40,019 nt of DNA, from contig JAUYCD010000216.1 of the NCBI GenBank assembly GCA_030692375.1, positions 1-40,019 of the forward strand, written 5' to 3'. Position numbers and translations under genes: made by a program. Below, piece after piece: positions 457 to 1,219 of this stretch. The DNA is from Candidatus Latescibacter sp. Lineage in GTDB: Bacteria > Latescibacterota > Latescibacteria > Latescibacterales > Latescibacteraceae. Each line of letters begins with the position of its first letter. The stretch's first letter is position 1. A model generated the notes under the pieces. The model worked only from the letters and a program-made list of their open reading frames with translations, had not been told where the DNA came from and ran no database searches.

Positions 457-1159
457 AGCGAGTAGGGGGATTACTCACGGTTTCCCCCTCTCACACCACC
501 GGACGTACGTACTGCGTATCACGGCGGTTTCCTCTGTCGGTTGAGCCGTTAGTGTGATTGGCCAAGAAGTAGCAGTGTTCAACGCCGCAAATGCTTGCAG
601 CTCCTCGTGTACTGAAGCTTCGGTTCCGCCGTCACTGCATGTACCGTGGCGCATTACCTCCTTTGCAGGTAGGTAATGCCTTTGCTGCTGCTCTACATTC
701 GTCGAGTATCCCCTACATACCTTGCAACAGAAGATTCGGCCCTTCGGCATCGAATTCAAGATGCCTACTATGGCCTCTGCTGAATTCTATCCGCCCTTCC
801 AGTGACGCCGCCGCCCCTGTAGTCGTCATCGCGACGACAGGTAGAGAGACCTCCCAGGGTAAGACATAACTCTTTCCCCCGGCCCTCGCCGGATTTACCT
901 GTGCGCGTGTCCGGATAGTTATCGGGCGTCTCCGTCCATTGCCGGATTACCCCACCGCACCGGCCTTGTATCCGGTTTCTGTTCGTCGAGTCCGGGATTT
1001 GCCTCCGGCTTCATTGGGGTCCCCGATTGTGCTTTGCACAATTCTGGGTGCCCTTCAGACCCAGCCTCGCGGCTACGCCCTTGCCTTTGGCTAACAGTTC
1101 CTCCTATCAGGCCTGTAAGGGACTTCCACCCTCAAGTGAACGCGCCCTGCCGGGCGCAC
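457..1159 (-). ncRNA. Group II intron without reverse-transcriptase ORF (probably class C)
   Basis: Read on the minus strand, the segment starts with the canonical GTGCG (1159-1155) and a GC-rich stem, and ends with recognisable domains V and VI. Domain V lies at about 495-530. Its lower stem pairs ACCGCCG with CGGTGGT, it contains a CGC catalytic-triad position, and its 3' strand has the characteristic ACGTCCGGTGGTGTGAGAGG. Domain VI follows as GAGAGGGGG paired with CCCCCTACTC, with the bulged A of TACTC as likely branch point. Domain I-like text (CCTGATAGGAGGAACTG, AGCCAAAGGCAAGGG) is present near the 5' end. The total of about 700 nt fits the RNA part alone. The roughly 1.2 kb maturase/RT gene normally in domain IV is absent, and the only minus-strand frame (475-759) runs into domain V and resembles no RT. 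Insertion immediately downstream of a terminator T-tract and the CGC triad both point to class C. The exact 3' boundary is uncertain by a few bases. Confidence 0.75.
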
Positions 1160-1190
1160 AAAAAGGAAGCCGGTCCCACGGGAGACCGGC
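1160..1190 (-). terminator. Rho-independent terminator of the cupin/SMP-30 gene
   Basis: A perfect 7-bp GC-rich stem (GCCGGTC/GACCGGC, 1169-1175 with 1184-1190) is followed on the minus strand by TTCCTTTTT. It lies 29 bases behind the stop codon of the gene at 1220-3184. The intron 5' end begins at the base after the T-tract. Confidence 0.85.
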
Positions 1191-1219
1191 TGTGTGTATC
1201 AAACCTATAGATCAGAGGA

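Follow-up and report, generated by a model that had tools for sequence, protein, structure and literature searches.

Bacterial introns that lack an open reading frame (ORF) are rare, and their genomes nearly always also contain related introns, the protein of which could help them in trans; in the 2015 review that describes them, C.te.I1 of Clostridium tetani is the sole known exception, with no related reverse transcriptase (RT) in its genome (PMC4424553). A later survey counted 281 introns without an intron-encoded protein among 2381 in representative genomes, and confirmed that class C introns insert right after transcription terminators (PMC8919778). In T. elongatus, ORF-less introns have lost the ORF through a deletion inside it, and domain IV still contains fragments of the coding sequence (PMC2882425). 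Here we describe an ORF-less intron in a 40,019-nucleotide stretch of DNA (the window) from Candidatus Latescibacter sp. (GenBank assembly GCA_030692375.1, contig JAUYCD010000216.1). Judged by its sequence, it is a member of group IIC (bacterial class C), located behind the terminator of an SMP-30/cupin gene. We consider that it is probably a stranded and immobile, perhaps still foldable, copy that has lost the core of its RT gene. Since both ORF-less introns and the insertion of class C introns at terminators are already described, it adds to a known kind.

Ribozyme domains and the missing RT gene

An earlier note on this DNA had proposed a class C-like group II intron at 457–1159, and covariance models as well as homologues bear this out. 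On the minus strand, RF02001 and RF01998 score above their gathering thresholds (Table 1), and all six ribozyme domains are present. RF00029 reached 28.2 bits on 457–529, which is under its gathering score of 40 (E-value 0.0027 in a 1-kb search). Domain V carries one base more on its 5' strand than most IIC introns, as do those of two RT-bearing IIC introns (L156:3937 and L175:3769), in which RF00029 found no match even at E-values up to 1. Because these two introns have the same layout and are missed as well, the low score is a trait of the sublineage, and decay was rejected as an explanation for the extra base; the Rfam domain V model thus overlooks a IIC sublineage. The predicted fold of domains V and VI is the expected one (z = -3.9, with none of 200 shuffles equally stable), and it recovers the CGC triad and the bulged A that the note had pointed out. 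The note had named the absence of a domain V match and a mostly deleted domain I as grounds against its proposal; domain V is present, and a deletion of domain I was rejected on the basis of the alignment to full-length relatives, in which this domain is complete. When a 40-nt insertion is left out of account, 27 of the 30 consensus pairs are preserved in domain I; the range in RT-bearing relatives is 20 to 30.

The closest full-length relatives are L156, from an IMG/VR contig (25 consensus pairs in domain I), and L033, from genome G165 (28 pairs), both of which have an RT frame. The RT of L033 matches TIGR04416, the group II RT/maturase model, and its best match of solved structure is the GsI-IIC RT (E-value 8.5e-144). 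The note had suggested looking for a full-length, RT-bearing relative elsewhere in the genome; none was found in the assembly. The window intron resembles GsI-IIC, L156 and L033 in domain order, in its GUGYG 5' end, in the 2-nt bulge of domain V, in the bulged A of domain VI, in a candidate loop for exon-binding site 1 (EBS1) and in its insertion behind a terminator. It differs from them in having no RT ORF, in the additional 40 nt within domain I, and in ending with CU rather than AU.

The alignment to L156 and L033 runs across domains I to III into the start of the RT coding sequence; approximately 1.3 kb of the RT gene is then missing, and the alignment picks up again at the end of this gene, immediately ahead of domain V. 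Because little sequence is left on the C-terminal side and it has diverged, the deletion junction can be placed only approximately. What remains in domain IV is recognizable at the protein level (local score of 70; the best of 500 shuffles reached 56) and at the DNA level when compared to L033 (42; the best of 1000 shuffles reached 30); the DNA comparison with L156 is not clear (35, equal to the shuffle maximum of 35). No intact RT/maturase frame exists within the intron; an RT of its own is typical of the group, but ORF-less members are without one. A 94-aa frame at 475–759 was rejected as a functional protein, having no NCBIfam match and being in part RT remnant. The statement that the intron has no RT/maturase frame is thus correct for a working RT, but the decayed N-terminal portion of one persists in domain IV.

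In a pattern search, the exact 5' end had no match in viral contigs; E. coli genomes gave no match either. Among genome contigs, a degenerate but overly strict 5'-end pattern matched only two Omnitrophota metagenome-assembled genomes (MAGs), whose 5' ends are 86–87% identical.

Insertion site, boundaries and blemishes

The SMP-30/cupin gene is encoded on the minus strand, matches PF08450 and PF07883, and has its stop codon at 1220. The intron begins with GTGCG at 1159, immediately past the terminator T-tract that ends at 1160; both the sequence and the fold of the terminator confirm this placement, which had been suggested before. Its 3' end, at 457, aligns with the CGAU ends of its relatives. 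On the other side, a plus-strand gene reaches as far as 404, and the intron therefore sits in a gap between convergent genes. Most relatives with a captured 5' flank also start directly behind the T-rich tail of a terminator, the exceptions being L112 and L118, whose 5' exons have no T-tract. Neither an empty site nor a flank match for this insertion was present among the loci fetched.

For 27 introns, pairing between EBS1 and intron-binding site 1 (IBS1) was scored in a register set by hand. The family mean was 3.76 of 5, compared to 3.09 as the highest value in 10000 permutations; this mean is slightly favoured, since the pairing was kept in view when the L175 boundary was chosen. The window intron scores 3.0 of 5, the same as L156, a value that 2 of the 26 other exons reach by chance.

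Table 1. Features of the intron and its flanks (window coordinates)
Feature	Position	Strand	Evidence
ORF-less group IIC intron, 703 nt	457..1159	minus	Rfam matches; alignment to full-length RT-bearing L156 and L033
Most of domain I	863..1076	minus	RF02001, 113.6 bits (gathering 32)
Hairpin insertion in domain I, 40 nt	1013..1052	minus	alignments, fold, genome pattern search
EBS1 candidate AAUGG in 8-nt loop	936..940	minus	register from 27 IIC introns
Domains II-III region	739..822	minus	RF01998, 66.4 bits (gathering 35)
Domain IV with decayed N-terminal RT ORF remnant	529..738	minus	protein and DNA scores, alignment
Domain V: CGC triad, 2-nt bulge, one extra bulged U common to L156 and L175	495..528	minus	
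Domain VI with its bulged A (463) and a CGCU 3' end in place of CGAU	457..494	minus	
3'-exon segment complementary to domain VI loop	427..443	minus	13/15 bases by eye
T-tract and final 5'-exon bases (IBS1)	1160..1164	minus	sequence; partial pairing with EBS1
Intrinsic terminator stem-loop, 3' of SMP-30/cupin gene	1168..1191	minus	10-bp stem, -18 kcal/mol, z -4.1

The RNA parts had also been described as intact, and this holds in that every domain is present; the description missed the domain I insertion and the non-standard penultimate base of the 3' end. The insertion was seen in no compared relative and folds into a hairpin of its own, which is weak (z -1.9). It was rejected as a dispersed repeat, there being no second copy in the host assembly with up to 3 mismatches. 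The RT-bearing IIC intron L224 (2059–2258) carries a 26-nt domain I insertion approximately 10 bases from the corresponding site, indicating that this region can tolerate extra sequence. In a pattern-based count, the CGCU end was confined to the window intron and to L108 (G003:C454), a same-family IIC intron that is likewise ORF-less, while most others end in CGAU. The CU end departs from the standard AY; we regard it as a variant that does not exclude the intron from group IIC. Within 427–479, an imperfect 15-nt inverted match between the domain VI loop and the 3' exon could form a competing hairpin, and the two folds are nearly equal in energy (-38.9 kcal/mol for the exon hairpin versus -38.5 for native domain VI); the match possibly arose by quasi-palindrome mutation or by chance. 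The non-standard 3' end, the unique insertion and the altered apex of domain VI could all be signs of drift.

A probably stranded intron, and alternative readings

The host assembly (G000) is a MAG of 3.9 Mb in 273 contigs and is 97% complete. It contains a single copy of the intron, hence no sibling with the same deletion junction, and no GIIM domain was found in it. Its sole RVT_1 match is a defence RT of the UG19 type (DRT family; 699 aa, L002:235-2334 on G000:C232), and a IIC RT query retrieved nothing else; subject to the incompleteness of the MAG, no related RT was thus found elsewhere in the genome.

These observations are probably best explained by the following course of events. A IIC retro-intron of the terminator-targeting kind would have entered the DNA directly past the SMP-30/cupin terminator, and either this copy or its immediate parent would have undergone an internal deletion in domain IV, losing some 1.3 kb that encoded the RT, up to a point immediately ahead of domain V. 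The scaffold of the ribozyme is complete and may still fold. With no RT in the genome, the copy would be immobile; its site is past a terminator, in a gap where two convergent genes meet and nothing is translated, so that splicing is not required of it. Transcription of the intron is probably rare, and its sequence would be free to drift. We infer this immobility, the loss of selection and the relative order of deletion and insertion. The intron is most likely under little or no selection, and may simply be dead. Several points weigh against such a reading. Its 27 domain I pairs are as good as those of many RT-bearing relatives, so that decay is only slight, and the CGCU end, being common to ORF-less L108, may be a working variant. 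In addition, a multi-copy RT-bearing intron could have remained unassembled in a fragmented MAG, which is conceivable because contigs of G003, a genome of the same family, break inside intron copies; in G000, no contig was seen to end in such an intron.

The intron could instead have inserted when already ORF-less, being spliced and mobilised, now or in the past, by a IIC RT acting in trans as in T. elongatus. The well-kept ribozyme, domains V and VI that the deletion left untouched, an EBS1-IBS1 match equal to that of RT-bearing L156, and the existence of other ORF-less IIC introns, including a multi-copy set in genome G288, all speak for this possibility, for which there is a precedent of the same architecture (PMC2882425). 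We nevertheless regard it as rather unlikely, since the host assembly has neither a IIC RT nor a sibling copy, and the same deletion junction was recognised in no copy elsewhere. The ORF-less introns of T. elongatus (TeI3a and others), which we take not to belong to class C, resemble the window intron in their internal ORF deletion and in the coding remnants of domain IV; they differ in being multi-copy, and their genome also encodes a driver RT. The proposal of the earlier note that such an intron would have to be spliced or mobilised in trans describes something possible, but is unsupported here: the assembly shows no group II maturase and no second copy.

A self-sufficient intron that splices with no need of protein is a further alternative, which would fit the presence of all ribozyme domains and the lack of a maturase in the assembly, and for which C.te.I1 provides a described precedent (PMC4424553). 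C.te.I1 is likewise ORF-less and without a related RT in its genome; for the window intron, protein-free splicing is hypothetical. We find this explanation very unlikely, because splicing brings no evident benefit at an intergenic site; the CU end, the extra 40 nt in domain I and the hairpin that the 3' exon could form also count against it. Lastly, an RT-bearing intron could have lost its interior through a misjoin during assembly. The MAG does consist of short contigs, and those of G003 break within intron copies, but the junction is spanned by unique RT-remnant and domain IV sequence, and the assembly has no other copy with which to misjoin; such an artefact is thus extremely improbable.

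ORF-less group IIC introns in other genomes

We searched 386 genomes with RF02001 and fetched the matching regions. ORF-less IIC introns having both domain I and domain V were identified in G064 (L107), in G003 (L108) and in G288 (L112, L118 and probably L283), with L107 and L108 exceeding all three Rfam thresholds. In G288, which is 99% complete in 40 contigs, ORF-less IIC introns or pieces of them occur at approximately 10 places; these loci include L112, L118, L283 and others, on C14, C23, C9, C8 and C4. A IIC RT query found no such RT in G288. Short-read assemblies favour short copies, so that no rate of ORF-less copies can be derived from these data.

The window intron and the G288 set could suggest that IIC introns lose their RT again and again and endure, as small ORF-less ribozymes of sound structure, in genomes free of group II RTs, a generalization that we regard as doubtful at present. 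If true, it would imply either mobilisation by horizontally transferred RTs that come and go, or protein-free splicing. A IIC intron with no detectable group II RT in its genome, together with the set in G288, provides cases for studying the lifetime of introns that lack an RT and their possible ability to splice.
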